Positions 6,956 to 54,944 of a DNA stretch of 64,000 bases are shown in pieces. Source of the DNA: Nocardia sp. BMG51109 (GTDB lineage Bacteria > Actinomycetota > Actinomycetes > Mycobacteriales > Mycobacteriaceae). The stretch lies in the NCBI RefSeq assembly GCF_000526215.1, contig NZ_JAFQ01000004.1, forward strand, positions 1,798,001 to 1,862,000, written 5' to 3'. The notes under the pieces were generated by a model that saw only the letters and a program-made list of their open reading frames with translations, made no database searches and was not told where the DNA came from. How positions within the stretch are numbered: position 1 is the first letter of the stretch; every line of letters begins with the position of its first letter. A program made the translations under genes and the position numbers.

Positions 6956-8907
<1,952 letters not shown>

Positions 8908-9176
8908 AACGCCGATGATAGGGCGAATTCCGTCGAACCCCCCGGCCGAAGTACGCACCGCGGGCGGCGTCCGCACCCGCGACGGCGATAATCTCTCCGC
9001 ATCGTTCGCACCGTCGCGAAGACCGCGAACTGAAACGAGTTCACAAGATTGACAGCGCCGCCAACGCTCGATCGGACGCCCCGGGAGAAGCCCGAAAGAT
9101 CACCTGCACCACCGACTCGACCGCCGGTGGCGGCCGGGTCCGCGGCCGGAATTCGACCTCGGACCTTCACCAGTAT
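8908..9176. other. Intergenic region without a recognised gene
   Basis: The divergent promoter region between the glutathione peroxidase and GMC oxidoreductase genes. The left edge holds the leaderless peroxidase promoter; the right edge leads into the KstR-like operator. No conserved frame is seen between. Confidence 0.5.
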
Positions 9177-9190
9177 TAGAACTTGTTCTA
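9177..9190 (+). promoter_or_regulatory. KstR-consensus operator
   Basis: TAGAACTTGTTCTA is a perfect 14-bp palindrome that fits the mycobacterial KstR consensus TNNAACNNGTTNNA at every fixed position. KstR is the TetR-type repressor of the cholesterol-degradation regulon. The site lies about 100 bp upstream of the GMC oxidoreductase start. Confidence 0.7.
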
Positions 9191-9194
9191 CAGT

Positions 9195-9248
9195 GATCTC
9201 GGGCACGCTCCCGCGCGCGCCGATCTCGGGCACGCCCCCGCGCGCGCC
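9195..9248 (+). repeat. Two tandem 27-bp units in the GMC gene leader
   Basis: A 27-bp unit beginning GATCTCGGGCACGC and ending CGCGCGCGCC is present at 9195-9221 and 9222-9248 with one mismatch. It lies between the KstR-like operator and the coding start, hence in the 5' leader if transcription begins near the operator. Confidence 0.75.
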
Positions 9249-9287
9249 GACGCCGACGACGACCACTTCGAGGACGAGGTAAGCACT

Positions 9288-10922
9288 ATGACCGAATCTC
9301 CGCGCAACGCGGCAGCCACCGAAGCCGACTACATCGTCGTGGGTGCGGGCAGCGCCGGAGCCATCGTCGCGGCCCGGCTGGCCGAGCACGGCGCCAGCGT
9401 GATCCTGCTGGAGGCCGGCCGCAAGGACAACACCCGGCTGGTCCGGGTTCCGGGCATGATCACGACGGTGCACACGGTGCCCCAGCTGAAGCACCGGGTG
9501 ACCTGGAGCCAGTACTCGGTACCGCAGAAACACGCCAACGAGCGCGAGATCCCGATGACCCGCGGCAAGGTGCTCGGCGGCTCCAGCTCCGTCAACGGCA
9601 TGCTGTTCGTCCGCGGCAACAAGGCCAACTTCGACTCCTGGGCCGCCGAAGGCTGCGACGGCTGGAGCTACCAGGACGTCCTGCCCGCCTACAAACGCCT
9701 CGAGAACTGGGAAGACGGCGCCAACGAGCTCCGCGGCTCCGGCGGCCCCATCCAGGTCACCCGGCAGAAGGAACTGACCCCGATCGCGCAGGAATTCCTC
9801 ACGGCCGCATCGGAAACGCTCGGGGTGCCGCGCATCGCCGACTACAACGGCGAGTCGCAGGAGGGCATCAGCATCTTCCAGCAGAGCGCCCGCAACGGCA
9901 TCCGTTACAGCTCCTCTCGCGGCTTCATCACCGAGCGCCCGAACCCGAATCTCCGCGTGGTGACCGGCGCGCACGTCGCCCGCGTCGTCATCGAGAAGGG
10001 CCGGGCGACCGGCGTCGAGGTGATCGAGAAGTCCGGGCGCCGCATCATCCGCGCCGGCAAGGAGGTCGTGGTCTCCGGCGGCGTGATGGGCTCGCCGCAC
10101 ATCCTGCTGCTGTCGGGCATCGGCCCGGCCGGGCACCTGCGCGACATGGGCGTGGACGTGCACGCGGACCTGCCCGTCGGCCAGAACCTGCACGACCACC
10201 TGTTCGTCCCGATGACCTTCATCTCGAAGAAGGCGATCCACCGCGGCATCCCCTCGCACTTCGCGGCCGGCCTGCTGCGCGAGACCGTGCGCCCGGGCAG
10301 CTCCTGGATGGGCCGGACGGTGTTCGAATGTGTCGGGTTCGTGCGGACCTCGATGGCCAAGGACGTGCCGGACATGCAGATCCACACCCTGCCGTGGAGC
10401 TATCCGGTGCCCAACCAGGACGAGGACAAGCTGCACATGGTGGACCGCAGGCCCGGCCTGACCGTCTTCCCGACGCTGATCTACCCGAAGAGCCGCGGCG
10501 AGCTGCGGCTGGGCTCGAAGGATCCGCTCCAGCAGCCGCTCATCGACCCGGGCTACCTGTCCGACTCCGCCGACACCGACTTCCTGGTCGAGGCCATCGG
10601 CATGATCCGGGAGATCATGGCGTCCAAGACGATCGCGGGCGACGTCACCGAGGAGCTCTCGCCCGGACCGGATTTCACCGACGAGACCGCGCTGCGGCGG
10701 GAACTACCCAACCGCATCCACTCCGTCTACCACCCGGTCGGCACCTGCCGCATGGGCGCCGACGAACGCGCCGTGGTCGACCCGCAACTGCGGGTGCGCG
10801 GCATCGAGGGCCTGCGCGTCGCCGACGCCTCGATCATGCCGAGCATCACCGGCGGCAACACCAACGCACCGTCGTACATGATCGGCGAGAAGTGCGCCGA
10901 ATTCATCACCGCCGGAGCCTGA
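9288..10922 (+). CDS. GMC-family FAD oxidoreductase (choline dehydrogenase-like)
   Basis: A 544-residue flavoprotein. The N-terminal FAD-binding motif is YIVVGAGSAGAIVAARLAE (residues about 15-33), followed by the GMC signature GKVLGGSSSVNGMLFVRG. The C-terminal catalytic region shows HSVYHPVGTCRMG, with the catalytic His, and ITGGNTNAPSYMIGEKCA, where an Asn stands at the second active-site position. The family oxidises primary alcohols, choline, sterols or glycols. The start at ATG 9288 follows GAGG. A KstR-type operator upstream suggests a role in sterol or steroid side-chain metabolism, which is inference. A perfect hairpin follows the stop. Confidence 0.85.
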   Translation: MTESPRNAAATEADYIVVGAGSAGAIVAARLAEHGASVILLEAGRKDNTRLVRVPGMITTVHTVPQLKHRVTWSQYSVPQKHANEREIPMTRGKVLGGSSSVNGMLFVRGNKANFDSWAAEGCDGWSYQDVLPAYKRLENWEDGANELRGSGGPIQVTRQKELTPIAQEFLTAASETLGVPRIADYNGESQEGISIFQQSARNGIRYSSSRGFITERPNPNLRVVTGAHVARVVIEKGRATGVEVIEKSGRRIIRAGKEVVVSGGVMGSPHILLLSGIGPAGHLRDMGVDVHADLPVGQNLHDHLFVPMTFISKKAIHRGIPSHFAAGLLRETVRPGSSWMGRTVFECVGFVRTSMAKDVPDMQIHTLPWSYPVPNQDEDKLHMVDRRPGLTVFPTLIYPKSRGELRLGSKDPLQQPLIDPGYLSDSADTDFLVEAIGMIREIMASKTIAGDVTEELSPGPDFTDETALRRELPNRIHSVYHPVGTCRMGADERAVVDPQLRVRGIEGLRVADASIMPSITGGNTNAPSYMIGEKCAEFITAGA

Positions 10923-15060: not shown

Positions 15061-15138
15061 CCCTCACCGCAAGCGCTCCTTAAGACCCCGGCAAGCCCGG
15101 GGCGGCATCGTCTGTGTCACCACCGGATAACACCGGTG

Positions 15139-15156
15139 CCCCACCACCGCGTGGGG
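15139..15156 (+). terminator. Small hairpin downstream of lutC
   Basis: CCCCAC (15139-15144) pairs with GTGGGG (15151-15156) over a 6-nt loop. A second, weaker CCCCGG/CCGGGG hairpin lies at 15085-15101. Either could contribute to ending lutC transcription. Confidence 0.4.
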
Positions 15157-15210
15157 ACAAGCGGAGGTGACCCGTCGACGAGGGGTGTCGGGTCTCATCC
15201 GACCGCCGGC

Positions 15211-15244
15211 GTGCTCCTGCTGCTCGAGGGGACAGCAGGATCAC
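15211..15244 (+). terminator. Hairpin overlapping attL
   Basis: GTGCTCCTGCTG (15211-15222) pairs with CAGCAGGATCAC (15233-15244) with one mismatch and a 10-nt loop. It lies downstream of lutC and may be its original terminator; the attachment core covers its loop and right arm. Confidence 0.6.
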
Positions 15245-15254
15245 GTCCGGTGCG
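15225..15254 (+). other. attL (30-bp core)
   Basis: The 30-bp sequence starting CGAGGGGACAGCAGGATCAC is identical to 24727-24756, and the similarity stops abruptly on both sides. On the left it forms the loop and right arm of a hairpin whose left arm (15211-15222) is host DNA. Confidence 0.85.
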
Positions 15255-15337
15255 ATTCGAGGGAGTCCAACGGTGTCCGTGAGCAGGGGTTTTGCACTTC
15301 CGCGAACACTGGCGGACGTACCAATACGACGCGAATT

Positions 15338-15355
15338 GTGACACGCAGGTGACAC
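15338..15355 (+). promoter_or_regulatory. Paired GTGACAC sites near attL
   Basis: GTGACAC at 15338-15344 and again at 15349-15355. The same heptamer, inverted, is paired upstream of the neighbouring XRE gene at 16396-16414, so it is probably a binding site of that regulator. Confidence 0.45.
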
Positions 15356-15360
15356 AGAAA

Positions 15361-15392
15361 GGCCCGCGCTCCATCGTCGGGCAGCGCGGGCC
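15361..15392. terminator. Terminator hairpin of the leftmost element gene
   Basis: A perfect 10-bp stem (15361-15370 with 15383-15392) and 12-nt loop, 22 bp past the stop of the XRE gene on the minus strand. It isolates the element from the lutC side. Confidence 0.75.
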
Positions 15393-15413
15393 GTCTCTGT
15401 TCTTGATCTGCCG

Positions 15414-16376
15414 CTACGGCTTCCACCCGGGCTCTACAAGATCCAACATCGGCGTCAGCCATCCGGCGGACCGGTGAGCGGCAGGCATCGCCGCGACCCC
15501 TTGTGCGGCTTCCCGCTTGCCATCGCAGCGGCGGCCGAGGGTCGACAGCACGACACCGCGGTGAAGGCCCCAGAATCCGGCGGTATACCAGTAGCCCCAG
15601 GACGGTAGCTCGATACCGTCGGTCACGTCCGCCGCGTGCTCGGCGCCTGCCAGGGCCTTGGCCGACCGGCGGTTGTCGCCGCGCACAGCCAGGATCTCGG
15701 CATGCTGATGGCGCGCGTACACGCCGAGGATCGGGTGCGCGCCGTCCACCTCGGCCGCCGCTTCGGTGAGGTGTATCGCCCGTTCGGTGTCGCCCTGGCA
15801 GCGAGCCGTGTAGGCGCGGAAGCTCAGCGCGTGGGCGAGCTGGGACCGGTCGCCAGCAGTGTCGGCGAGCTGTGCGGCATCCTCGAATGCTTTGTTCGAG
15901 ATGTGTGCCCGGCCGGTGTCGTGTTCGAGCCACCCTCGATATCCAGCTACTTCGGCCGCCAATCCTGCGGCCGTCGAGCCGCCGCCTACATTCTCCGCGG
16001 TCAATGCTCGTGCCAGACTGTCGATGCCTCGGACCACGGGCAAAACGAGGGCCGCCCCGGCGGTGTCCTCGAGGTGGCGTGTGCGTTCGAGGATCGCACT
16101 TATGTCCTCGAGGCTCGAGGCGCCGGCCTTCGCCGGATCGGCGACGGTCGCGCCGAGACGTTCCACGTCGACGCCGGTGAGGCCGAGTGTCGGATCACCG
16201 AGGGCCTTCCGGTAGGCCTTCACCACTGCGTCCGTCACCGGCTTCCGCCCGGTCTCGATCTCGGATAGGTAGCTCGCCGCGAATGTGGTGCGTGCGGCCA
16301 TAGTGCGCAATCCGATGTCGGCGACCGTGCGCAGTTCGCGCAGCAGATTTCCGGTCACGGCTGATTCTGCGAACAC
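15414..16376 (-). CDS. XRE-family regulator with TPR-like C-terminal domain
   Basis: A 320-residue protein. Residues about 8-60 form an XRE HTH (LRTMAARTTFAASYLSEIETGRKPV, with the usual SYLSxIExG recognition helix). The remainder is all helical and TPR-like (HALSFRAYTARCQGDTERAI, AEILAVRGDNRRSAKALAGA). This is a common actinobacterial regulator layout in which the helical part may sense a small ligand or partner. The GTG start at 16376 lacks a clear ribosome binding site; 16358 is an alternative. Paired GTGTCAC sites lie just upstream. It is the first element gene next to attL. Confidence 0.8.
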   Translation of the reverse strand: MFAESAVTGNLLRELRTVADIGLRTMAARTTFAASYLSEIETGRKPVTDAVVKAYRKALGDPTLGLTGVDVERLGATVADPAKAGASSLEDISAILERTRHLEDTAGAALVLPVVRGIDSLARALTAENVGGGSTAAGLAAEVAGYRGWLEHDTGRAHISNKAFEDAAQLADTAGDRSQLAHALSFRAYTARCQGDTERAIHLTEAAAEVDGAHPILGVYARHQHAEILAVRGDNRRSAKALAGAEHAADVTDGIELPSWGYWYTAGFWGLHRGVVLSTLGRRCDGKREAAQGVAAMPAAHRSAGWLTPMLDLVEPGWKP

Positions 16377-16395
16377 CTGCGAACACTAACGCGCT

Positions 16396-16414
16396 CGTGT
16401 CACCACCGTGTCAC
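16396..16414. promoter_or_regulatory. Paired CGTGTCAC sites upstream of the XRE gene
   Basis: CGTGTCAC at 16396-16403 and 16407-16414, in direct orientation, 20 bp from the XRE start. A 10-bp tandem TGCGAACAC(C/T) at 16368-16387 covers the start itself. Together they look like an autoregulatory operator. Confidence 0.5.
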
Positions 16415-16558
16415 GACGAAGGTTATTCGTGGCCCCGCCGCCGAGTCGAGTCGATGCCCGGCCCCTGGTCTGACGACTGATCCAACCTCGAACCCCGGTC
16501 GTCGGACCCGCTCCCCGGCGGCGGGTGCCTTCCACGAGGCGCGACCGAGGGAGAAGCG

Positions 16559-16909
16559 ATGCGGGACAACGCAGTTGGGCTCATCCGATCGGACCTGAGC
16601 GAGGATGTGGCCGCCGACGAGAAAGCGATCCGCGAACTGGCCGAATGGTCGGATCTGGAATTCGCCGAGGGCCTGGTGTTCGACGCTGCCACCGACATGC
16701 CGACGTTACGGCTCATCGAAGCCGTGCACCGCGCCAAGGCGCAGGTCGTGATCGTCCCGACGGCCGCGCACCTGGGTGGCGGTCGCCGCGCGCTCGAGGA
16801 ACTGGACGTGTCGGTGCTGTGCTCGAAGCTCGCCCGCCCGGTCACCACCGGCGACGCGGGGGCCTCGGCGGGACGGCCGCCGACCGGCGACGGACCCGAT
16901 GCGGCGTGA
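16559..16909 (+). CDS. Small element protein, possibly resolvase-domain-like
   Basis: A 116-residue acidic protein with good codon use and a strong GAGGGAGAA ribosome binding site before ATG 16559. The middle (DMPTLRLIEAVHRAKAQVVIVPTAAHLGG) has the pattern of the serine-recombinase N-terminal fold, in which a helix leads to a strand with 'VIVP...HLG'. The catalytic Ser and Arg of resolvases are not visible, so it would be a non-catalytic relative at best. The C-terminus is disordered (Gly/Ala/Pro-rich). The next gene overlaps by 4 bp. Function unknown. Confidence 0.6.
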   Translation: MRDNAVGLIRSDLSEDVAADEKAIRELAEWSDLEFAEGLVFDAATDMPTLRLIEAVHRAKAQVVIVPTAAHLGGGRRALEELDVSVLCSKLARPVTTGDAGASAGRPPTGDGPDAA

Positions 16910-17202
16910 GCGAGATAACGGCCTGGTGGATGCTGGCAGGGCTGCTGGTCATCGCCGGGGGCGTGGTGTGGCTTCTGCTGCGCTCGGGCCGCGACTACGA
17001 GCGGAAGGCACCGACACAGCCCCTGTGGACGATCGGCTGGACGCACGAGGCGCCGCCGTACGAGCCGGGGGTCGCGGGCGCCCACAAGATCATGCAGCAG
17101 CACCGAGCCTGCGACCGGGAAGACTGCCCGCGCAAGCGAGTGGCGTGGCAGGTGCTCGTCGAGGCCGGGCACATCCGGCCGGACTCGACGCGCGAGTACT
17201 GA
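16906..17202 (+). CDS. Small single-pass membrane protein
   Basis: A 98-residue protein. Residues about 5-26 (AWWMLAGLLVIAGGVVWLLL) form one transmembrane helix; the rest is a basic cytosolic domain with two cysteines in HRACDREDCPRKR. GTG 16906 overlaps the preceding stop as GTGA, so the two are co-translated. No family is recognised. Small membrane proteins in temperate elements can act in superinfection exclusion or lysis control, but nothing here shows either. Confidence 0.6.
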   Translation: MSEITAWWMLAGLLVIAGGVVWLLLRSGRDYERKAPTQPLWTIGWTHEAPPYEPGVAGAHKIMQQHRACDREDCPRKRVAWQVLVEAGHIRPDSTREY

Positions 17203-17212
17203 GGGCCACCGG

Positions 17213-17464
17213 GATGAGCAGGCCGGGCAGCGGCAGCAACAGATCCTGCAAACACTCGCCGATGGGGCGCCCCGCGACTGCGGCGCCATCGGAGAGGACA
17301 TCCGGCTCAGTCCGGACCGGGTGCACACGACGATCGGCACCATGCATGAACGCGGCTGGGTGAGCCAGGTCGGGAGGGCGCGGCATTGGCAGGCGCAGGT
17401 GTGGCGGATCACCGCGGCGGGGCGGAAGCAGATCCCGCCGCAGTGCAGCAGACGCAGGGAGTGA
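17213..17464 (+). pseudogene. Winged-helix DNA-binding protein without a usable start
   Basis: The frame from 17213 to TGA 17462-17464 encodes a clear winged helix: QILQTLADGAPRDCGAIGEDIRLSPDRVHTTIGTMHERGWV, followed by the wing WQAQVWRITAAGRKQI. No ATG, GTG or TTG in this frame lies at or upstream of the domain before unrelated sequence. An ATG at 17214 is one base out of frame. A small insertion or deletion near the start is the simplest explanation; use of a rare start codon is possible. Confidence 0.55.
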
Positions 17465-17480
17465 CAATCTGTCACTCCCT
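17456..17480 (+). terminator. Terminator overlapping the winged-helix stop codon
   Basis: AGGGAGTGACA (17456-17466) pairs perfectly with 17470-17480 over a 3-nt loop. It includes the TGA of the winged-helix frame and ends the three-gene rightward unit that starts at 16559. Confidence 0.8.
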
Positions 17481-17785
17481 CCTGCTGCACGGTATCGAGA
17501 GAGGTTCACCGCGAACCGCTGTCGCGGTCTCCAGCACGACCAAAACTGCACTGAAGATTTGGTTACGGAGAGTCCCGCAAAGACGCTGGTCAGCGAGCGG
17601 AGTTTGCCGACCAAACTCTCCTCGGCGCGGACTCTTCGCAGGTCAGATACTCCGCATCCGGTCGCGCCTGAGATTCGGCCCCGCACAAAAAATTCCATGA
17701 CTACCGGCGGAGTCATGCGGGTGGGGGTCAGAATATTTTCCGGGGGTGGGGGTGCGGCAGACGCACACCCCCGTCGACCGGACGA
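17481..17785. other. Non-coding stretch between convergent element arms
   Basis: About 300 bp with lower GC than its surroundings. No frame has a ribosome binding site or a recognisable product. It may be the decayed end of the capsid side of the element. Confidence 0.4.
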
Positions 17786-17815
17786 ACGGGGGTACTCATA
17801 GGCGAGTACCCCCGT
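17786..17815. terminator. Terminator after the capsid gene
   Basis: A perfect 12-bp stem (17786-17797 with 17804-17815) and 6-nt loop, 21 bp beyond the capsid stop on the minus strand. Confidence 0.85.
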
Positions 17816-17835
17816 CCCACCTGGCGGACGCCCTT

Positions 17836-19269
17836 CTACGCGGTCGTGGGCACCGACAACAGCCGGAATGCCTGGGGCACGACGACATCGGATCCTGTTC
17901 GGAACCAGAGCAATGCGCCCCGCTCGCCGCTCGGCCGGCGGTTGGCGCCCATCAGGTGAGGCACGAGTTCGAGCGTCGAGCCGAGGCGATCCACGATCAC
18001 GAACTGCCCGAAGTCGCCGTAGAGCAGCGGGTAGTTGGCCTCGGTCGCGCCGGGGTTCAGCGTGCCGTCCATGTTGCTGTTCTCGTACATGGTGCGGCCG
18101 AGCAGTGACGGCGGATTACCTTGCAGCCCAGGGAATTTCAGCGCACCGGCCGCCGTCTCGAACTGGCGCAACGTGTTCAGAACGGCCAGGTTGGCGTTCC
18201 ACGAGGCGTTCGGCTGCCACCGCGGCGGTAGCGCGTTCTGGACCGTGAACGGGTCGCTGGCCGCGATCGTCTCGGGTGTCGTCGGCGAGACCAGCGGCAC
18301 GGTACCGGCAGCGGCGACCAGGGCCGTGATGATGCCCTTGGGCTGGCCGGTGCCCGAACCGGTGGTGTAGGCGGTCGCGGAGAGCTGGTCGGCGCCGTCC
18401 TGGAGCAGCCGCCCGAGTTCGGTCATGAATCCGACCGCGTCGCCTTCGATCTCGAAGGAGAACGGCACGAACGCATCACCCTTGTGCACGGGGATCGCTG
18501 GTTTGGCCAGGGTCGGCGAAGCGTCGGCCACCTCGGCGGCCTCGGCGGTCCACTCCGCGGTCACACCGGCCGAGGTGATGCCGTTCCACGAATCGGTAGC
18601 GGTCTGCACGACCCGCGAGATAGCACGCAGCGGGTTCGTGCTGCCGTTGCTCGTGAGCATGACGGCCGGATCGAGGGTCAACGGCACCATGTAGCCGCCC
18701 GCGGTGTCGGTCAGCGACATGGAGCGCTGCTCGACACGCAGCGCGTCGACCGCGCGGTACGCCTCGGCTTCGGCCGCCGTCCATGTCAGGTGACCGTGCG
18801 TCGGGTTGCCGACCAGCTTCGCGAACGCGCGCTCGTAGTCCTCGGCCCCGGCGGCCACGGCGTAACGCGCCGTCCACGACCGGGACAGCGCCGGGCCGTG
18901 GTCGACCAGCGTCTCCACCAGCTCCGCACCGCGGGCGGTCAGGCGATCGGTTCGCACCGCGGCATCGAGGCTGTACAGCGCCCGGTCCCGCTCGGAGAAC
19001 CCGTCGCTACCGGCACCGTCGGTCCGGGGTCGGTCCACGATGCCCAGGCCGGCACCGCCTCCGCGCGCACCGCGGATCTCGGCGAGCGTCGCGTCGTGCT
19101 CAAGGTCGAGCCGCTGGCGGTGAACCTCGCGGAACTCGGCAAGCAGCTGCTCGCACTGCCGCACCTCGGCCGCTGCCTTGCCCGGCTTGGTCTTCAGGTG
19201 TTCGAGCTCGTCCTGAATGTTCTTCTCGCGGTCGAGGCACCGCTGGTAGACCGCGCTGTTGACGCGCAT
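17836..19269 (-). CDS. HK97-type phage major capsid protein
   Basis: A 477-residue capsid protein. Residues about 10-65 form the charged coiled-coil delta domain that guides assembly. The HK97 fold follows, with family marks TAGGYMVPLTLDPAVML, EWTAEAAEVADASPTL, the E-loop/P-domain region VPFSFEIEGDAVGFMTELGR, TGQPKGIITAL and the late YGDFGQFVIVDRLGSTLELV. No prohead protease is fused to it or encoded nearby. The ATG at 19269 has GAGGAG upstream. It is the only virion gene in the element. Confidence 0.9.
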   Translation of the reverse strand: MRVNSAVYQRCLDREKNIQDELEHLKTKPGKAAAEVRQCEQLLAEFREVHRQRLDLEHDATLAEIRGARGGGAGLGIVDRPRTDGAGSDGFSERDRALYSLDAAVRTDRLTARGAELVETLVDHGPALSRSWTARYAVAAGAEDYERAFAKLVGNPTHGHLTWTAAEAEAYRAVDALRVEQRSMSLTDTAGGYMVPLTLDPAVMLTSNGSTNPLRAISRVVQTATDSWNGITSAGVTAEWTAEAAEVADASPTLAKPAIPVHKGDAFVPFSFEIEGDAVGFMTELGRLLQDGADQLSATAYTTGSGTGQPKGIITALVAAAGTVPLVSPTTPETIAASDPFTVQNALPPRWQPNASWNANLAVLNTLRQFETAAGALKFPGLQGNPPSLLGRTMYENSNMDGTLNPGATEANYPLLYGDFGQFVIVDRLGSTLELVPHLMGANRRPSGERGALLWFRTGSDVVVPQAFRLLSVPTTA

Positions 19270-19561
19270 GTGCGTACTCCTCTGCACAGGGGGGAATCGA
19301 GGGAATCGACGGGTGCTCTCCGGCCTCGATCGGGTGGAGTTCGCGGCGCGTCGCCTTCCGGCCGACAGTGCACCGGCGGCGGCCGAGAAGGCGGTGCCGG
19401 TGCGGCTGTCCAGGAGCCGGTGAAGGCACCTGCGATCTTATCGCGCCGGGCCGACGCTCCCGCCGACCGTGACCCGAAATCTCGGGAGAGAGAAAGGGCG
19501 ACTGACCGGCGGGTCGCCCCCGACCTGCGCTTTCTCGCGGCAACCCCCTCCCCCCGGGGGT
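19270..19561. other. Gap upstream of the capsid gene
   Basis: About 290 bp between the 70-residue gene and the capsid gene. A low-quality Arg/Ala/Pro-rich frame runs through on the minus strand, but it has no family features and overlaps the capsid start. The position is where a scaffold or protease gene would be expected. Confidence 0.4.
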
Positions 19562-19774
19562 TCACTCGCCGTCGGCGCGGCGCGACTGCGCGACACCGGC
19601 CACCATCCCGGACAACCGGGCACCGAGCAGCCCGGCCACGAGCACCAGCTCGTCACGACTCAGATCCGCAGTCTGCACGCGCACCGCCTCATCGAAGGCG
19701 CTGCCGCTGACCCAGTACCGCGCCGCGGTCTCGATCGCCCACGCCGCAGTGATATGCCTCGGGTTATCGGTCAA
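19562..19774 (-). CDS. Small element protein of unknown function
   Basis: A 70-residue helical protein (AWAIETAARYWVSGSAFDEA, LVLVAGLLGARLSGM). TTG 19774 is chosen because it overlaps the WhiB-like stop as TTGA with AAGGA just upstream, which indicates translational coupling; an ATG at 19813 would overlap by 43 bp. No family is recognised. Confidence 0.55.
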   Translation of the reverse strand: MTDNPRHITAAWAIETAARYWVSGSAFDEAVRVQTADLSRDELVLVAGLLGARLSGMVAGVAQSRRADGE

Positions 19775-20043
19775 CGTCCTTGCCCTTTCTCGCCGCACAT
19801 CCGCCCGGCCCACACCCCGACCGCTTCCCGGCCGAGTTCGGCCGCCACCGCGTCACACGCGGCCCGCACCGGGCACGCCGAGCACAACCGCTCGGCCACG
19901 GTCACACGATCGATCCGCGCCTCGCTGCTCTCGCCGGGCACCACCTCATCGAAGAACGGCGCACACCCCACGCACACCGCACCCGACAGCCGCGCGTCCG
20001 CCAGCTCGGCCACGAGCGCCCGCGCGCCCCGATACCCGCCCAT
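19771..20043 (-). CDS. WhiB-like iron-sulfur regulator
   Basis: A 90-residue protein with the four-cysteine WhiB arrangement: Cys in AVCVGC near residue 25, then CSACPVRAAC (CxxCxxxxxC), followed by the turn motif GVWAG, a variant of the GVWGG that contacts sigma factor. WhiB proteins bind a [4Fe-4S] cluster and act on the SigA region 4 in actinobacteria; phage copies (as in TM4) can repress host whiB genes. It overlaps both neighbours by a few bases and lies between the replication gene and the capsid arm. Confidence 0.8.
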   Translation of the reverse strand: MGGYRGARALVAELADARLSGAVCVGCAPFFDEVVPGESSEARIDRVTVAERLCSACPVRAACDAVAAELGREAVGVWAGRMCGEKGQGR

Positions 20044-21431
20044 CAGTCGCTACCGTCCTGCTCGCGCCATGCCTTCAGTGCCCGGTTCGCGCGGTCGCTG
20101 CCCCAACCCATCCGATCCTGCACATCGCGCCGAGACTTCGGCAGCGGGTCGAGCGCGGCCAGCACAGCCACGTCATCGCTGACCTTCTCCGCGTCGGCGG
20201 CGCTGATAGCGAAGCTCGTCGGTGGACGGTCGCCGTCCTTGGGCGCGCGGATGACAGCCTCGAGGATGCCCTCGCCGAGCGGACTCGGGTCGAGGCGGAA
20301 AAGGCCGGCGGATGGTTCGCGGCCGCCGGTCGGGCAGTGCTGGCGCAGGCCGCCGTGCCGGTCCTTGTTGACCGTCAGCCACGCCGAGCCGCCCTGGCCC
20401 GGCGTGAACGCCTCGTTCAGCGTCACCCGCAGCGAGACGCCGCCGATGGTGCGGCGCTTGGCGGCCGTACCGCCGGGGCCGAGTGTCCGGGATTCGCTGC
20501 CCTTGGCGAGATGGTCGATCACCAGTACCGCGGCGCCGGTTTTCGCGAGCGGCTTGAGCGCGGTCCGGTGCGCGTCGGTGTACTCGTCGGCCGAGTTCGA
20601 CGAGGACCCGAACAGCGGCAGCAGCTCGCCGAGGCTGTCGAGCACCACGATGCCCGGTCGCCAGACCTTCATGTCGGCGACCACACCGAGCAGGTGGCTA
20701 CGGTCTTCGGGTTCGACGTACAGGAACCGCTCGCGGTCGGCAAGCGCGGCCTTGTCCGCACCGAGCGCCAGCAGGCGCGACACCATCGCGGCCGCGCCGT
20801 TGTGGTCGAGGTCGATCACTACGGCGCGACCGTCACCGTGCGCGCCCAGCAACTCTCGGGCAGCGACCAGCGCGAGCCACGTTTTGCCGGACTCCGGATC
20901 GCCGAACACGAGGTTCACCTCACCGGCGTAGAACAGCGCGTGCGCGTCGTCGCGCACACCGTAGGCAGGCGCGGGCGGGTCGGGCAGGGTGCCGTCGAGC
21001 AGTCCGGCCACGTCGAAATAGCGGCCGTAGTCCACCTCCGGCGAGTGGTCCTGAGAGTGGTCCTGAGTGGTCCCGGACCACTCCGAATCATGGTCCTGGG
21101 AGTGGTCCTGCCCGGAATCGTCCAGGACCACTCCATTCGATCGTTTCCGCTGGTTGCGGACGTTTCGGCGCGAGTGGTCCTGGTCCTGACCCCCTAGGGT
21201 CGAGGACCGAGGACCACCCGGGGGTGAGTGGTCCTGAGAGTGGTCCTGGGTCGTCGCCTCGCGAAGGCTCTGCCGGAGCATCTCTTGCTGCTCCTCGGCG
21301 AACGCCTTGCACGAGAAGCACACCTTGTCGTACACCGCGTGTGCCCGGCAATGCCAGGTCGGTTCGGGCAGATCCTCCGCCCCGGAGGGCGCCGCAACCG
21401 AAGCCGCGACGCCCTGGGTCCTCTTACTCAA
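20043..21431 (-). CDS. RepA-like AAA/RecA-fold ATPase with embedded iterons
   Basis: A 462-residue replication-type ATPase. Residues about 20-50 hold a Cys/His cluster (WHCRAHAVYDKVCFSCK) that could bind zinc. Residues about 60-135 are a low-complexity linker with repeated QDHS. The RecA-fold core follows: Walker A NLVFGDPESGKTWLAL, VVIDLDHNGAAAM, Walker B GIVVLDSLGELLP and VLVIDHLAKG. A C-terminal winged-helix-like end is DVQDRMGWGSDRANRAL. This layout matches AAA_25/RepA helicases of small actinobacterial prophages. TTG 21431 is chosen because GGAGGA lies upstream and it overlaps the previous stop. Confidence 0.8.
   Translation of the reverse strand: MSKRTQGVAASVAAPSGAEDLPEPTWHCRAHAVYDKVCFSCKAFAEEQQEMLRQSLREATTQDHSQDHSPPGGPRSSTLGGQDQDHSRRNVRNQRKRSNGVVLDDSGQDHSQDHDSEWSGTTQDHSQDHSPEVDYGRYFDVAGLLDGTLPDPPAPAYGVRDDAHALFYAGEVNLVFGDPESGKTWLALVAARELLGAHGDGRAVVIDLDHNGAAAMVSRLLALGADKAALADRERFLYVEPEDRSHLLGVVADMKVWRPGIVVLDSLGELLPLFGSSSNSADEYTDAHRTALKPLAKTGAAVLVIDHLAKGSESRTLGPGGTAAKRRTIGGVSLRVTLNEAFTPGQGGSAWLTVNKDRHGGLRQHCPTGGREPSAGLFRLDPSPLGEGILEAVIRAPKDGDRPPTSFAISAADAEKVSDDVAVLAALDPLPKSRRDVQDRMGWGSDRANRALKAWREQDGSD
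21043..21248. repeat. Iteron cluster GAGTGGTCCTG (candidate replication origin)
   Basis: GAGTGGTCCTG occurs exactly at 21043, 21055, 21100, 21172, 21226 and 21238 on the plus strand, and inverted at 21123-21133. GAGTGGTCC also forms a perfect inverted pair about one base at 21065-21083. Partial copies lie at 21091 and 21181. Spacing between close pairs is 12 bp, about one helical turn. The cluster lies inside the RepA-like gene, where it encodes the QDHS repeats. Confidence 0.7.
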
Positions 21432-21762
21432 ATTGCAACGCCTCCTCCGTGCAAAGCCGCTCCAGCAACTCGTGCTCAGCGGCCCGTGCCTGGCGGTGCA
21501 GCAGCTCCACCAACTCGCGATCGGCACCGCCCCGCTTCCACAGCTGGCGGGCGACCTCGCGTGGAACGACCGGCGTGCAGCCTGACTGCCAAATATCCTG
21601 TGCCGCAGCGCTCCACGCGGACAGCTGGCGCGCGGTCGGCACCTGGTCGTCGTCGTGCAGCCCCTCAAGCCACGGATCACCGCCGGGCAGCCGCTCGGCA
21701 CACCGCGCCCGGCGGCGCAGCTGCACCGGCACCGGCTCGGCGTCGGCGACCGAGTTGCTCAC
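21424..21762 (-). CDS. Element protein of unknown function
   Basis: A 112-residue, mostly helical charged protein (PREVARQLWKRGGADRELVE, LLHRQARAAEHELLERLC). GTG 21762 is chosen because it overlaps the preceding stop as GTGA and has GGAAGG upstream; its own stop overlaps the RepA-like start by 8 bp. It is part of the tightly packed leftward operon. No family recognised; position suggests an accessory replication role. Confidence 0.6.
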   Translation of the reverse strand: MSNSVADAEPVPVQLRRRARCAERLPGGDPWLEGLHDDDQVPTARQLSAWSAAAQDIWQSGCTPVVPREVARQLWKRGGADRELVELLHRQARAAEHELLERLCTEEALQFE

Positions 21763-22268
21763 CGGCCCGCCACCTTCCGGCACGACCGGCACACCACCGG
21801 CACCGGCGGCGCGGGCGGCGTGCACCGGCCGCACTCGCGCCCGCACCTCGAGCAGTGCAAGGCGATGGTGACCTGTGCCCGGCCCACCCCATCCGGAACG
21901 GCGTCACGGGCGAACAACGTCGACGCCTCGAAGCCCAGCACGAGCGAGAGCAACACCACCTCGGCCACGAACAACGGGCGGCGCTCGTGCAACGTGGCCT
22001 CCAGCTCAGCCGGGCTGATACCCGCCGCAACCGCGATCTCGTCGCGAGGCCGGCCGTCCGCCTCGATCGCCTCGCCGAGACGGGCGAGCACCACGCGAGC
22101 CTTGGCGACGGCGTCGCCGTCGGGGATGTCATCGGCACAGCCGTCCGCGGGCACGAACTCGTGATCCGCGACCAGCTGATCGTGAACGTCGCGACTGTGG
22201 TCGCACCGGCCACACAACCCCGGGCGGTCGTCAGCGTTCGCGCTGGTCGGGTATGTAGTCTTGGACAT
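21759..22268 (-). CDS. Element protein with two possible zinc ribbons
   Basis: A 169-residue protein. The N-terminal part has LCGRCDHSRDVHDQLVADHEF, a Cys/His cluster. The middle AVAAGISPAELEATLHERRP looks like an HTH, followed by LFVAEVVLLSLVLGFEAS. The end has LHCSRCGRECGRC and VVCRSCRK, a second set of Cys pairs. This pattern suggests a DNA-binding zinc protein. ATG 22268 with AGAAGAGA upstream is preferred; ATG 22361, which overlaps the excisionase stop, would add 31 residues of poor quality. Confidence 0.6.
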   Translation of the reverse strand: MSKTTYPTSANADDRPGLCGRCDHSRDVHDQLVADHEFVPADGCADDIPDGDAVAKARVVLARLGEAIEADGRPRDEIAVAAGISPAELEATLHERRPLFVAEVVLLSLVLGFEASTLFARDAVPDGVGRAQVTIALHCSRCGRECGRCTPPAPPVPVVCRSCRKVAGR

Positions 22269-22360
22269 AGAAATCTCTTCTCGTGAGGCGTTGGGGTTTC
22301 TGTTGGCCCGGCGAGCGGTTGCACCCGCTCCCGGGCCGCTTTCGTCGATGAGCGCCGACA

Positions 22361-22570
22361 TCAGGCCGCGCCCTGATCTGCCGAATTAGCATCCGATGCA
22401 CTCGACAGACCGTCGATGAACTCGACGATGGCAGCCTCGGGGATCAGGCGGCGGCTGCCGACCTTCACCGAGCGCAGGACGCCGGAATTCATCAGCTCGT
22501 ACAAAGTCGAACGTCCGATGTCGAGCCGCTCGAGAGCGGCCGGAATGCTGTGAAGCTGAGCGGTGCTCAC
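22361..22570 (-). CDS. Excisionase-like MerR/AlpA HTH protein
   Basis: A 69-residue protein with a winged HTH of the MerR/AlpA excisionase type: SIPAALERLDIGRSTLYELMNSGVLRSVKVGSRRLIPEAAIVEFID has the typical 'GRSTLYxLxxxGxLxxxKxGxRxxI' pattern. Such proteins bend attachment DNA to direct excision and can also activate the lytic-like operon. GTG 22570 follows GAGGAG. It is the first gene of the leftward operon and divergent from the repressor. Confidence 0.85.
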   Translation of the reverse strand: MSTAQLHSIPAALERLDIGRSTLYELMNSGVLRSVKVGSRRLIPEAAIVEFIDGLSSASDANSADQGAA

Positions 22571-22690
22571 ATTGAACTCCTCGTTACGGTAACGACATTT
22601 CTATCGTTCGTTGGTATCCATACGAGTTCTACGCTCTTCGTGTGGACACCGCAAGCAGGCTGTAATGTCGTATCCATGACGACAAATTGG
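22571..22690. promoter_or_regulatory. Divergent switch region of the element
   Basis: The 105-bp gap between the excisionase-like and repressor genes, plus the repressor start. It holds GTTACGGTAAC (22583-22593, palindromic), inverted AACGA/TCGTT (22591-22608), a direct repeat GTATCCAT (22612 and 22670), and TGTCGT/ACGACA (22666-22684) covering the repressor ATG. TAATGT (22662-22667) is well placed as -10 for a leaderless repressor mRNA. Confidence 0.6.
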
Positions 22691-23299
22691 GATGCCGAGA
22701 CGGCCTTGAGGGTCGGCCGGGCGGTGAAACAGCTCCGCGAATCCGAACGGCCGAAGCTGTCCGCCGCGAAGCTCGCCCAGCGGACAACCGAATGCGGCTA
22801 CGCGCTATCGAAGGCGCAGATCAGCGATCTCGAACTGGGACGCAAGAAGACCATCACCGTGCCCGAGTTGCTCATCCTTGCTACGGCACTGGGCGTATGG
22901 CCCGCATGGCTGCTCTACCCGGATTTGCCGCACGGTCGGGCGGAAGTTGTCCCAGGGAGGGACCTCCGCAGCATCGACGCCGTGGACTGGCTGGGCGGGC
23001 GGTACTGGTTCCAACCGGAATGGACTGGCCCCGACCACATCGCGCAAGAGAAGTTCGACCTTCCGAAAGCCTCACGGAAGCTGCGCGATCTGGACGAAGA
23101 CCTGAAAACCCTTCGTAACAAAGCGATTTGGAGTATCCGCCGCGACCCCAAGAGCGCCGAGGAGGCAACGCGGGCGTATCAGGCCGCGGTCGAGGACATC
23201 ATCAGCCAGCGGACCGAGCTTGCCGCCGCTATCCGGTCCCACGGCGGGACCGTAGACGACTTGCGAACAGAGCTGCCGACAGACCGTATGGAGAGCTGA
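22676..23299 (+). CDS. XRE-family repressor-like regulator
   Basis: A 207-residue protein with an N-terminal HTH: LRESERPKLSAAKLAQRTTECG, then YALSKAQISDLELGRKKTIT with the recognition helix, and ELLILATALGVWPAWLLYP. The C-terminal half is charged and coiled-coil-like (KLRDLDEDLKTLRNKA), with no LexA/CI-type protease motif, so it would not be cleaved by RecA. ATG 22676 is within an inverted repeat, which suggests autoregulation. It is divergent from the excisionase-like gene and 6 bp upstream of the integrase gene, the position of a maintenance repressor. Confidence 0.8.
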   Translation: MTTNWDAETALRVGRAVKQLRESERPKLSAAKLAQRTTECGYALSKAQISDLELGRKKTITVPELLILATALGVWPAWLLYPDLPHGRAEVVPGRDLRSIDAVDWLGGRYWFQPEWTGPDHIAQEKFDLPKASRKLRDLDEDLKTLRNKAIWSIRRDPKSAEEATRAYQAAVEDIISQRTELAAAIRSHGGTVDDLRTELPTDRMES

Positions 23300-23305
23300 A
23301 ATCCC

Positions 23306-24703
23306 ATGGCCCGCAAGAAGAAACTACCGAGCAGCATCACGTACAAGCCTCCCGGTCCGCGGTCGCCCGAACGGTGGGTGTTCCGCGGTCGCGCTGGCAC
23401 CGACCCGACGACCGGCAAACCTCGCTGGCACGTGGTCACGTGCTACGACGAGGCCGAGGCGATCGAGTACGACGCGCAGCACAGCGTGAAATCGGCTCGA
23501 GGATCGCTGTCAGGCCGACCGCCTCGGCTCACGGTCTCCCAGGCCATCGAGGAATGGGCAGACGGGCTGGGCGTCGACCCGAACACCCGAGCCGATTACG
23601 TCGATTGGCTCCTGCAACCGCTGGTCGCTGCGCACGGCACGATGCCTGTGCGGCAACTACATCGGACTCAGCTGACCCGACTGCGGGACCAGCTTCGTGC
23701 CGGCACTTGCCCGCATCCCACCGCGGGCGGGCGCAAGCGGGTGCCGTGGAGCGCGGACCGGGTGAACCGGTTTCTCGACAAGATCGAGAACATGCTGGGC
23801 GGCCTTCGCGACGAGGGGTTTTTGGACGTCAATTCGGCGGCGCTCGTGCCCCGTTTGCGCGAGCGCCGCGGCACGGTCGCTCAGGCACCGAAGCGCGGGG
23901 TGTTCATCGAGAATGAGACGAAGACGGAGGTATCGACCATCCTCCAGACGGCCGCCGAACGCGGCATTCAGCTGTTCATCGTGTGCCTGCTCGCGTTCGC
24001 GGGTCTGCGGAAGAGCGAGATAGCCGGATTGCGTTGGGATGCTGTCGATTTCGAAGCTGGGCGCATGTCGATATGGGAGCAGCGCAAGCGGAATCGGCGC
24101 AAGAAGGCGGACCGCGACGAGGGAGAAGGCACGGCGCTGGTCACCGATACCAAGACCGAGGAGTCACACCGCGAGTTGCCGCTACCACCGACGCTCGCGG
24201 CAGCGTTGAAGATGGTGCGCCGCTGGCAGCGCGAGATGCATCTCGCCTCCGGCCGCCGGTTCGGAGTGAAGGGCGAGCCACCGACGCATGTGGTGGTGAA
24301 CCCGTCCGGCGGCGCGGTGCACCCGGAGACGGTCTACGAGCGATGGGCCGACTTTGTGCGCACGCTCGGCGCCGCCCCGGAGGGAAGCGCTCGAACGGAG
24401 AGCGCGAAGACCCGTGCTGATGACGAACGGCCGCCCGTGATCTACCTGCACCTGCACGCCGCGCGGGACACCTGCGCGACCCTGTTGGCGCTGCGAGGCG
24501 TGCTGCCGCACCTCATCGGGGCATGGCTGGGCCACCAGCCCAAGGGCATGATCGCGTCGCCGGTCACCGGTGAGTACATCCACGGTGATTGGGAGTTCCG
24601 GGTGATGGTGGCCGAGCAGTGGGAGCTGATTTTCGGACCGATTGTGACATCTTGTGACATGGACAAGGCCATGAAGAGTGGAAAGTACCAGCTCAGTGCA
24701 TGA
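23306..24703 (+). CDS. Tyrosine-recombinase integrase
   Basis: A 465-residue phage-type integrase. It has an N-terminal arm-binding/SAM-like region (RLTVSQAIEEWADGL) and a C-terminal catalytic domain with the full set of active-site residues: Arg235 in AGLRKSE, His384 and Arg387 in HAARD, His410 in WLGH, and nucleophile Tyr424 in TGEYIHGDW. A charged insertion (about 256-280) lies in the catalytic domain. The gene follows the repressor after 6 bp and ends 23 bp before attR, as expected for the enzyme that inserted this element. Confidence 0.95.
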   Translation: MARKKKLPSSITYKPPGPRSPERWVFRGRAGTDPTTGKPRWHVVTCYDEAEAIEYDAQHSVKSARGSLSGRPPRLTVSQAIEEWADGLGVDPNTRADYVDWLLQPLVAAHGTMPVRQLHRTQLTRLRDQLRAGTCPHPTAGGRKRVPWSADRVNRFLDKIENMLGGLRDEGFLDVNSAALVPRLRERRGTVAQAPKRGVFIENETKTEVSTILQTAAERGIQLFIVCLLAFAGLRKSEIAGLRWDAVDFEAGRMSIWEQRKRNRRKKADRDEGEGTALVTDTKTEESHRELPLPPTLAAALKMVRRWQREMHLASGRRFGVKGEPPTHVVVNPSGGAVHPETVYERWADFVRTLGAAPEGSARTESAKTRADDERPPVIYLHLHAARDTCATLLALRGVLPHLIGAWLGHQPKGMIASPVTGEYIHGDWEFRVMVAEQWELIFGPIVTSCDMDKAMKSGKYQLSA

Positions 24704-24726
24704 TCAACAGGCCGGAACCTGCCTAC

Positions 24727-24756
24727 CGAGGGGACAGCAGGATCACGTCCGGTGCG
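24727..24756 (+). other. attR (30-bp core)
   Basis: Identical over 30 bp to 15225-15254. The integrase stop codon lies 23 bp to the left. Host sequence resumes at 24757. Confidence 0.85.
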
Positions 24757-24880: not shown

Positions 24881-24940
24881 ATGGAAACCGCGGTCGTCTT
24901 CGTACTGGCCTGCCTGGTCTATTGGTGGGGGCTGCTGTAG
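24881..24940 (+). CDS. 19-residue hydrophobic peptide
   Basis: ATG 24881 with GGGAG five bases upstream encodes METAVVFVLACLVYWWGLL and stops at TAG 24938. It is a single hydrophobic helix, long enough to span or insert in a membrane. It lies in host DNA between attR and the katA terminator. No family is recognised, and a frame this short could be chance; the good ribosome binding site and strictly hydrophobic composition argue for a real gene. Confidence 0.4.
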   Translation: METAVVFVLACLVYWWGLL

Positions 24941-54802: not shown

Positions 54803-54944
54803 GCAGTGATCCCGCCGCACCGCAGGTCATCCGCCGCACCGCAGTGATCCCGCCGCGCTGCAGTGATCCCGCCGCGCCGCAGTGATCCCGCCGCGCCGCA
54901 GTGATCCCGCCGCGCCGCAGTGATCCCGCCGCGCCGCAGTGATC
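54803..54944. repeat. 19-bp minisatellite, seven copies
   Basis: The unit GCAGTGATCCCGCCGCGCC is repeated at 54803, 54822, 54841, 54860, 54879, 54898 and 54917, with a partial copy at 54936. Copies 4-7 are identical; copies 1-3 have one to several changes. It is intergenic, and the 19-bp period is not a codon multiple. Confidence 0.9.

Follow-up and report, generated by a model that had tools for sequence, protein, structure and literature searches.

A 9.5-kb capsid-encoding element of Nocardia sp. BMG51109 as a probable phage satellite of the phiRv1/phiRv2 type

We analysed a 64-kb window (the whole stretch of DNA, C4:1798001-1862000 of the 8.79-Mb genome) of Nocardia sp. BMG51109, in which exact 30-bp direct repeats at 15225..15254 and 24727..24756 enclose a 9,502-bp element with an integrase and an HK97-fold capsid gene. 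Our analysis indicates that this element is probably a Nocardia phage satellite of the type of phiRv1 and phiRv2 of Mycobacterium tuberculosis. Its capsid lineage, separate from that of phages, the near-fixed size of its relatives and the circular form of one of them argue for a living satellite family, which, as we infer, probably spreads with the help of a true phage that lends it the parts it lacks.

To place the capsid among its relatives, 7,999 candidates from the protein database were scored, giving 722 homologues at E <= 0.001; the 120 that were listed share 53-79% identity with it. The nearest capsid of a sequenced phage showed 39% identity and the nearest one in IMG/VR 47% (among the best 80 of 182 loci), while the capsid had no match among plasmids and the whole element had no megablast match among phages. 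Capsid-positive genomes amounted to 10/150 in Nocardia, 19/401 in the family and 19/397 in the order at E <= 1e-40, and to 47/396 in Mycobacterium at 1e-30; the family, order and Mycobacterium sets are samples of larger groups, the positives include full phages, and the tallies are lower bounds, part of the first-look candidates having been scored in each genome. After the removal of duplicates, 71 loci were left that had a capsid and lacked any match above 25 bits to TerL or portal, and these comprise 61 loci that we call mini, eight with a tape measure, and L176 and L278, which were set aside.

The final tree held 104 capsids: 58 from mini loci, seven of the M. tuberculosis-complex type, 31 from phages (loci or records in which TerL, portal or both occur) and eight of the tape-measure type. 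Of the 65 mini and phiRv rows, 64 gathered on one side of a branch with 98% support in the Shimodaira-Hasegawa-like approximate likelihood ratio test (SH-aLRT), where none of the 31 phage capsids and none of the eight tape-measure-type ones lay. The seven M. tuberculosis-complex-type rows (four M. tuberculosis, one M. canettii and two close copies) fell on the same side as the window, and proteins that their source labels phiRv1 and phiRv2 lie inside the element's capsid group, in concordance with the relatedness proposed in a preliminary description of this stretch. The same description had stated that homologous elements with full portal/tail modules at the same site would point to a deletion remnant; no relative with a close capsid turned up in such a module, the 31 phage capsids lying across the 98% branch and the nearest phage record being 39% identical. 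Judged by its sequence, the capsid of the element belongs to a group apart from phage capsids. Left out of this tree were three broken capsids (L118, L164 and L176), three with long branches in an earlier tree (L166, L167 and L201), and L162, whose row is sound but had clustered with L092 and L166 there. That earlier tree comprised 44 rows labelled as satellite and 36 phage rows, and four changes of the label were required; L178, L180 and L182, later shown to carry a tape measure, stood among the phages, and L109 and L201 branched basally on the phage side.

Size was measured on 25 att-defined spans and one circular contig (L084), which average 9,473 bp with a standard deviation of 508 and a range of 8,072-10,523; the window element, at 9,502 bp, has the ~10 kb between att repeats of a phiRv-like element. 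Spans from a few kb to ~17 kb were within reach of the search, which yielded 32 with repeats of at least 19 bp, six of which were excluded from the average (L094, for the reason given below; L169, with two competing spans; L281, with a low-complexity repeat; and L180, L182 and L277, of the tape-measure type). Members with a serine integrase offered no usable att repeat and no length. L084 is a 9,805-bp contig whose ends overlap with 141/141 identical positions, corresponding to a 9,664-bp circle, and was binned in a groundwater metagenome-assembled genome named Deltaproteobacteria; since its capsid has a close counterpart in Mycolicibacterium (L083), the contig is probably misbinned. As a second circular contig L094 was rejected, just 513/1135 overlap positions agreeing. 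Moreover, in the 86 clusters from non-NCBI sources among the 120 listed capsid clusters, the longest contig measured 9-10.9 kb in 16, 7-8.9 kb in seven and 11-12.9 kb in five, which we take as a mild hint of complete free genomes.

The borders and gene content of the element agree with the preliminary description, which had placed identical 30-bp repeats at 15225 and 24727. Three 15-mer probes from the repeat matched solely the two att copies on both strands of the window, and base composition gives a chance expectation of ~1e-7 for an exact 30-bp repeat in 64 kb. Between the end of the integrase gene (24703) and the right repeat lie 23 bp, as had been described, and the excisionase/repressor switch, the RepA-like ATPase, the WhiB-like protein and the HK97 capsid gene were likewise recovered by the profile matches given below. 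The minus strand carries an NsdA-like XRE/TPR regulator, the capsid, an 83-amino-acid (aa) open reading frame (ORF), the WhiB-like protein, the RepA/DnaB-like ATPase, a 200-aa ORF and the excisionase, with the three small cargo ORFs, the XRE repressor and the tyrosine integrase on the plus strand. The features are as follows.

15208..15248, plus strand: host attB hairpin with 11 conserved pairs and loop CTCGAGGGGA (fold z, occurrence, covariation)
15225..15254, plus strand: attL core, the 30-bp direct repeat at the left element end (exact repeat)
15414..16376, minus strand: XRE/TPR regulator, NsdA-family-like, 320 aa (NF053720, 1.5e-24, over cut-off)
16559..16909, plus strand: cargo ORF, 116 aa, with no PHROG, NCBIfam or Pfam match
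16909..17202, plus strand: cargo ORF with a hydrophobic stretch by our reading, start approximate (the longer ORF has no Pfam match)
17225..17464, plus strand: small cargo ORF, winged-helix-like by our reading, start approximate (47-aa ORF with no Pfam match)
17836..19269, minus strand: HK97-fold major capsid protein, 477 aa, P0001 (PF05065, Phage_capsid, 1.5e-37; TIGR01554, 4.3e-44; database homologues; fold search)
19562..19813, minus strand: hypothetical protein, 83 aa (weak phrog_19321, 0.0038)
19771..20043, minus strand: WhiB-like protein, 90 aa (PF02467, WhiB, 8.2e-06, above cut-off; weak matches in seven other loci)
20043..21431, minus strand: RepA/DnaB-like AAA_25 replication ATPase (rep), 462 aa, P0165 (PF13481, 6.3e-12)
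21043..21249, strand not given: iteron-like cluster inside the rep gene, candidate origin
21759..22361, minus strand: hypothetical protein, 200 aa, with a weak repressor-like match (phrog_2328, 0.0033) and no Pfam or NCBIfam match
22361..22570, minus strand: excisionase (Xis), 69 aa (PF12728, HTH_17, 7.8e-10; TIGR01764, 1.3e-08)
22676..23299, plus strand: XRE repressor in divergent orientation to xis, its likely start read by us within an ORF that opens at 22550 (phrog_8, 1.2e-08; homologues in seven related loci)
23306..24703, plus strand: tyrosine integrase (Int), 465 aa (PF00589, Phage_integrase, 2.3e-11)
24727..24756, plus strand: attR core, the second copy of the 30-bp repeat (exact repeat)

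The start positions of the capsid and the ATPase are the likely ones, taken from database records of identical proteins, and the capsid, integrase and rep reading frames are all open in the window. The XRE-type HTH_31 match of the right-hand regulator reached 23.4 bits, under the Pfam cut-off of 27. The integrase carries the R, HxxR, H/W and Y motif stretches that we take to mark a tyrosine integrase. Stretches related to the cargo ORF at 16909..17202 occur elsewhere in the same genome. The 83-aa ORF lies upstream of the capsid, in the slot held by a protease or TerS in many relatives; it matched neither the protease nor the TerS profiles, and a homologue of it was not seen in any related locus.

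Pfam, PHROGs and NCBIfam scans (not every gene being run against every library) detected no gene for terminase, portal, protease or tail in the element, nor did custom profiles for TerL, portal, protease, TerS and a number of tail proteins, which were built from the relatives and run on six-frame ORFs of at least 40 codons. This supports the earlier statement that the capsid is accompanied by no other virion genes. The portal, TerL, protease, connectors, TerS and HNH genes of the capsid-forming phage-inducible chromosomal islands (cf-PICIs) gave no match in the profile, Pfam and PHROGs searches, and the terminase, portal and tail module of a complete temperate phage were not found by profile. 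Among 60 mini loci of at least 9.5 kb, a rep match was present in 28, a protease match in 32 and a TerS match in 14, the window having rep only. When integrase, capsid and protease were removed, the 146 other proteins of 16 elements included TerS and HNH as the only packaging families among the matches listed (the best 25 of 32 Pfam and the best 25 of 85 PHROGs families).

A structural model of the capsid (predicted local distance difference test, pLDDT, 69; predicted template modelling score, pTM, 0.53) starts with a long N-terminal helical hairpin (3-32 and 39-74), a weak linker (75-95) and more helices, followed by the HK97 core. Its top match in the PDB was the head of Mycofy1, at 38-45% identity in the Foldseek alignments, followed by a gene transfer agent (GTA) capsid, which we take to be that of Rhodobacter, with the cf-PICI EcCI2 at rank 10. 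Mycofy1 is a Mycobacterium phage with the closest solved capsid but, unlike the element, has a complete 52-kb phage record; it stands outside our tree, in which the phage capsids lie opposite the element's family. Since the model has a delta-like N-terminal domain and the element has no protease gene, it suggests that either a helper protease would be needed or the capsid would mature uncleaved.

The left end of the element lies in the attB hairpin. The att core holds the loop and the 3' arm, so the hairpin is complete at attL (-25.6 kcal/mol, z -4.55), and at attR the left arm is lost (z +0.13); by analogy, integration into this hairpin follows the logic of integration into tRNA genes. The pattern was found with 0-1 mismatch in 17/149 other Nocardia genomes and with at most two mismatches at 24 places in 23/150 genomes, the pattern read backwards occurring at one place. 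In 12 distinct sequences all 132/132 pair cells were standard, and when the partners were slid by 1-3 columns as a control 29-69% of the cells were paired; 3/11 pairs changed on both sides, a score that 1/500 shuffles reached. RNAalifold predicted 29 pairs in 12 longer attB regions, one of them changed on both sides and none such in the hairpin; the covariation in the hairpin itself comes from few sequences (the window, G075 and three others). A known RNA at this site was rejected, no Rfam family reaching its gathering score in the window, where only weak unrelated matches were seen, and ARAGORN found no tRNA in the 64 kb. We regard the attB hairpin region as a candidate unannotated structured RNA. 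The hairpin and further conserved sequence upstream of it span window 15064-15254, downstream of a LUD-domain gene. In the relatives, the att repeat overlaps a tRNA gene, as checked by coordinates, in 14 of 24 tRNA-scanned related loci (L083, L087, L088, L103, L106, L108, L113, L249, L255, L256, L264, L266, L273 and L276), a tmRNA in L164 and the 3' end of RNase P RNA in L082.

The preliminary description, which a lack of empty sites in relatives would have refuted, had proposed looking for an empty site in other genomes, and such sites, the empty attB expected of a mobile element, were found in three Nocardia relatives. Among the matches listed from 150 Nocardia genomes, the host's own included, the joined flanks ran unbroken across the junction in G075 and G136, and direct alignment gave continuous flanks, with gaps and only partial identity in the core, in G075 (L183), G136 (L184) and G135 (L185). 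In G144 (L186) and G146 (L187), ~430 bp of other sequence stand between the flanks. On the right flank, window 24881-24940 of the plus strand holds a 19-codon ORF, METAVVFVLACLVYWWGLL, and this stretch recurs at ~78-91% DNA identity in many of the Nocardia matches listed.

Within the rep gene, GAGTGGTCC occurs nine times in 207 bp, seven copies direct and two inverted. We searched for similar clusters in 30 loci with a rep match above 100 bits (two of the tape-measure type; the window is among the 30 and among the ten positives): a 9-mer repeated at least four times in a 300-bp stretch near the 3' end of rep was present in 10/30 loci vs 3/102 flank pieces (Fisher 1.7e-5), and one repeated at least five times in 5/30 vs 0/102 (4.6e-4). 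A Prim-Pol domain is fused to one (P0273) of the 120 listed relatives of the ATPase. Elsewhere, window 54803-54944 contains a tandem array of GC-rich units with GATCACTGC seven times, both strands counted.

A possible helper was sought in the host genome, which has a single PF03354 TerL place, inside a second phage-like element at C4 ~1955000-1981000 (L210, L211) with integrase, helicase, TerS, TerL, portal, protease and a partial capsid match. A resident complete helper is not evident there, given that partial match, and no PF10145 tape measure was found in the host genome, hence no obvious resident tailed helper. Because the sole TerL place sits in an element with no tape measure, our element, if it is a satellite, would wait for an incoming phage. 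The small cargo gene at 17226-17450 shares 226 bp at 89% with C4:1959308-1959533 in this second element; we give the sharing little weight, because 13 places in the host genome match the cargo stretch, its own included.

We propose that an incoming phage would relieve the XRE repressor, upon which Xis and Int would excise the element as a circle and the RepA/DnaB-like ATPase would replicate it from the iterons within its own gene. The capsid protein would then build a small shell fitting ~9.5 kb, while the helper would provide portal, terminase, tail and lysis, and also the prohead protease that the element does not have, unless the shell matures in its uncleaved form.

Three other explanations were weighed. 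The element could be the deletion remnant of a full prophage in which integrase, repressor, one replication gene and capsid were kept by chance. The undetected protease, TerS, portal, terminase and tail genes suit this, as do decayed copies among the relatives, such as L164 (G115), with its capsid split over two frames, and L176 (G340), with an in-frame stop in the capsid; nevertheless, these capsids from many genera stand in one separate group, the 26 measured elements vary little in length, phage records and the best 80 of 182 IMG/VR loci gave no full phage with a close capsid, and the capsid, integrase and rep frames of the window are open. We therefore think a remnant improbable, and a recent one unlikely from the sequence. 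Just as improbable, in our view, is an integrative plasmid-like element that employs its capsid for another use, as a gene-transfer or protective shell, with no helper phage. Its own integrase, excisionase, rep ATPase and iterons would fit such a life, and so would the GTA capsid next to the Mycofy1 head in the fold search and the missing resident PF10145 gene, but no portal, terminase or injection gene that could fill or deliver the shell was detected in it, and many relatives carry a prohead protease or TerS, which are phage-packaging functions.

A defence-type element, whose capsid protein would poison the head assembly of infecting phages and which would spread solely vertically or by chance transduction, appears slightly more improbable still. 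Other satellites do interfere with the heads of their helpers, and a capsid supplied with no partners is what such an element would need; conserved size and a circular relative, however, suit packaging better, and the occurrence of capsid-bearing elements in several actinobacterial families implies transfer.

Several observations count against the satellite that we favour. Its helper, induction, particles and transfer are all putative, proposed from the sequence of the element and its relatives. The satellite class was defined by missing TerL and portal matches, so their absence is partly a matter of definition, and we treat the capsid tree as the independent test; it carries no root and was made by a 'quick' procedure. 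L278, whose contig ends beside the capsid, lies outside the capsid group, and L118, which was dropped from the tree, combines capsid fragments with a TerL match 7.4 kb away and no portal match. At least five copies of an iteron-like repeat also occur in 2/21 window chunks outside the element, and because these chromosomal chunks pass too we consider the iteron evidence for a replication origin moderate. Finally, the element has neither the protease found in 32/60 mini loci nor the TerS found in 14/60, and with both undetected it could be a degenerate member of its family.

The element shares with phiRv1 and phiRv2 a capsid group, and their regulator and replication genes are similar to its own. 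It differs from the phiRv elements in its Nocardia host and in having no detected protease, and it has a tyrosine integrase where phiRv1 has a serine integrase. Like both, it combines an integrase and an HK97 capsid in ~10 kb (theirs measure 9.3 and 10.8 kb in the excerpt of PMC3986857); that excerpt classes the two, along with elements like them, as prophage-like and some of these as remnants, and lists integrase, excisionase, primase, protease and capsid for the similar phiBN42_1. Mycobacterium regions with integrase and capsid, phiRv1 and phiRv2 included, have been published as candidate PICIs, whose induction and transduction 'remains to be determined' according to the excerpted text of PMC10654092. 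As an integrase and a major capsid gene in one short element, the combination used in that text, the Nocardia element joins this already published type; the three tyrosine examples drawn in the excerpt use tRNA genes, in contrast to its non-tRNA hairpin. With the cf-PICIs, as excerpted from PMC10690885, it has in common a satellite-encoded major capsid protein and integration genes, whereas the protease, portal, connectors, TerL, TerS and HNH that they encode were not detected in it. MulchRoom and MiniFlayer, Streptomyces phage satellites in the same excerpt, are also actinobacterial, with own small capsids probable, and MulchRoom shares the tyrosine integrase, but they are given there with terminase and portal and no obvious replicase, the reverse of the Nocardia element. 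Many actinobacterial elements below 15 kb were supposed to be possible satellites in a prophage survey (PMC10023795, excerpt). Our literature search, judged by titles, gave nothing on point for Nocardia satellites or PICIs. What is new is that a tyrosine integrase targets a conserved hairpin with covariation and not a tRNA, that the shell comes with no protease, and that size is near-fixed.

We also observed a second class, in which L277, L180, L182, L282, L178, L280, L281 and L284 combine an integrase with an HK97 capsid directly adjoining a tape measure protein. A protease match was present in 6/8 of these loci, L281 also having a TerS match, and no TerL or portal match was found in the eight; the full Pfam list (16 families) for 64 proteins from four of them contained no terminase, portal or tail-tube family. 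Their att spans, measured in three, are 14.7, 15.5 and 16.1 kb. Elements of this kind could determine how large the head and how long the tail become, and we judge satellites with capsid and tape measure (~15 kb) more surprising than the shell-only element; a literature search on them, judged by titles, returned nothing evidently related.

Taken together, the results allow a broader reading, quite possible but tentative: an old, phylum-wide actinobacterial satellite lineage with its own capsid line and a near-fixed genome of ~9.5 kb, whose minimal members would give the shell protein alone and need foreign portal, terminase, protease and tail, swapping the box and neither shrinking nor fully rebuilding it. 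Since tyrosine integrases of the family target structured RNA genes (tRNA, tmRNA, RNase P), the Nocardia hairpin would, under this broader reading, mark a new RNA. The supply of a shell alone poses the question of how a foreign portal and terminase recognise it, and the Nocardia host is a place to test the phiRv-type family outside the tuberculosis complex.

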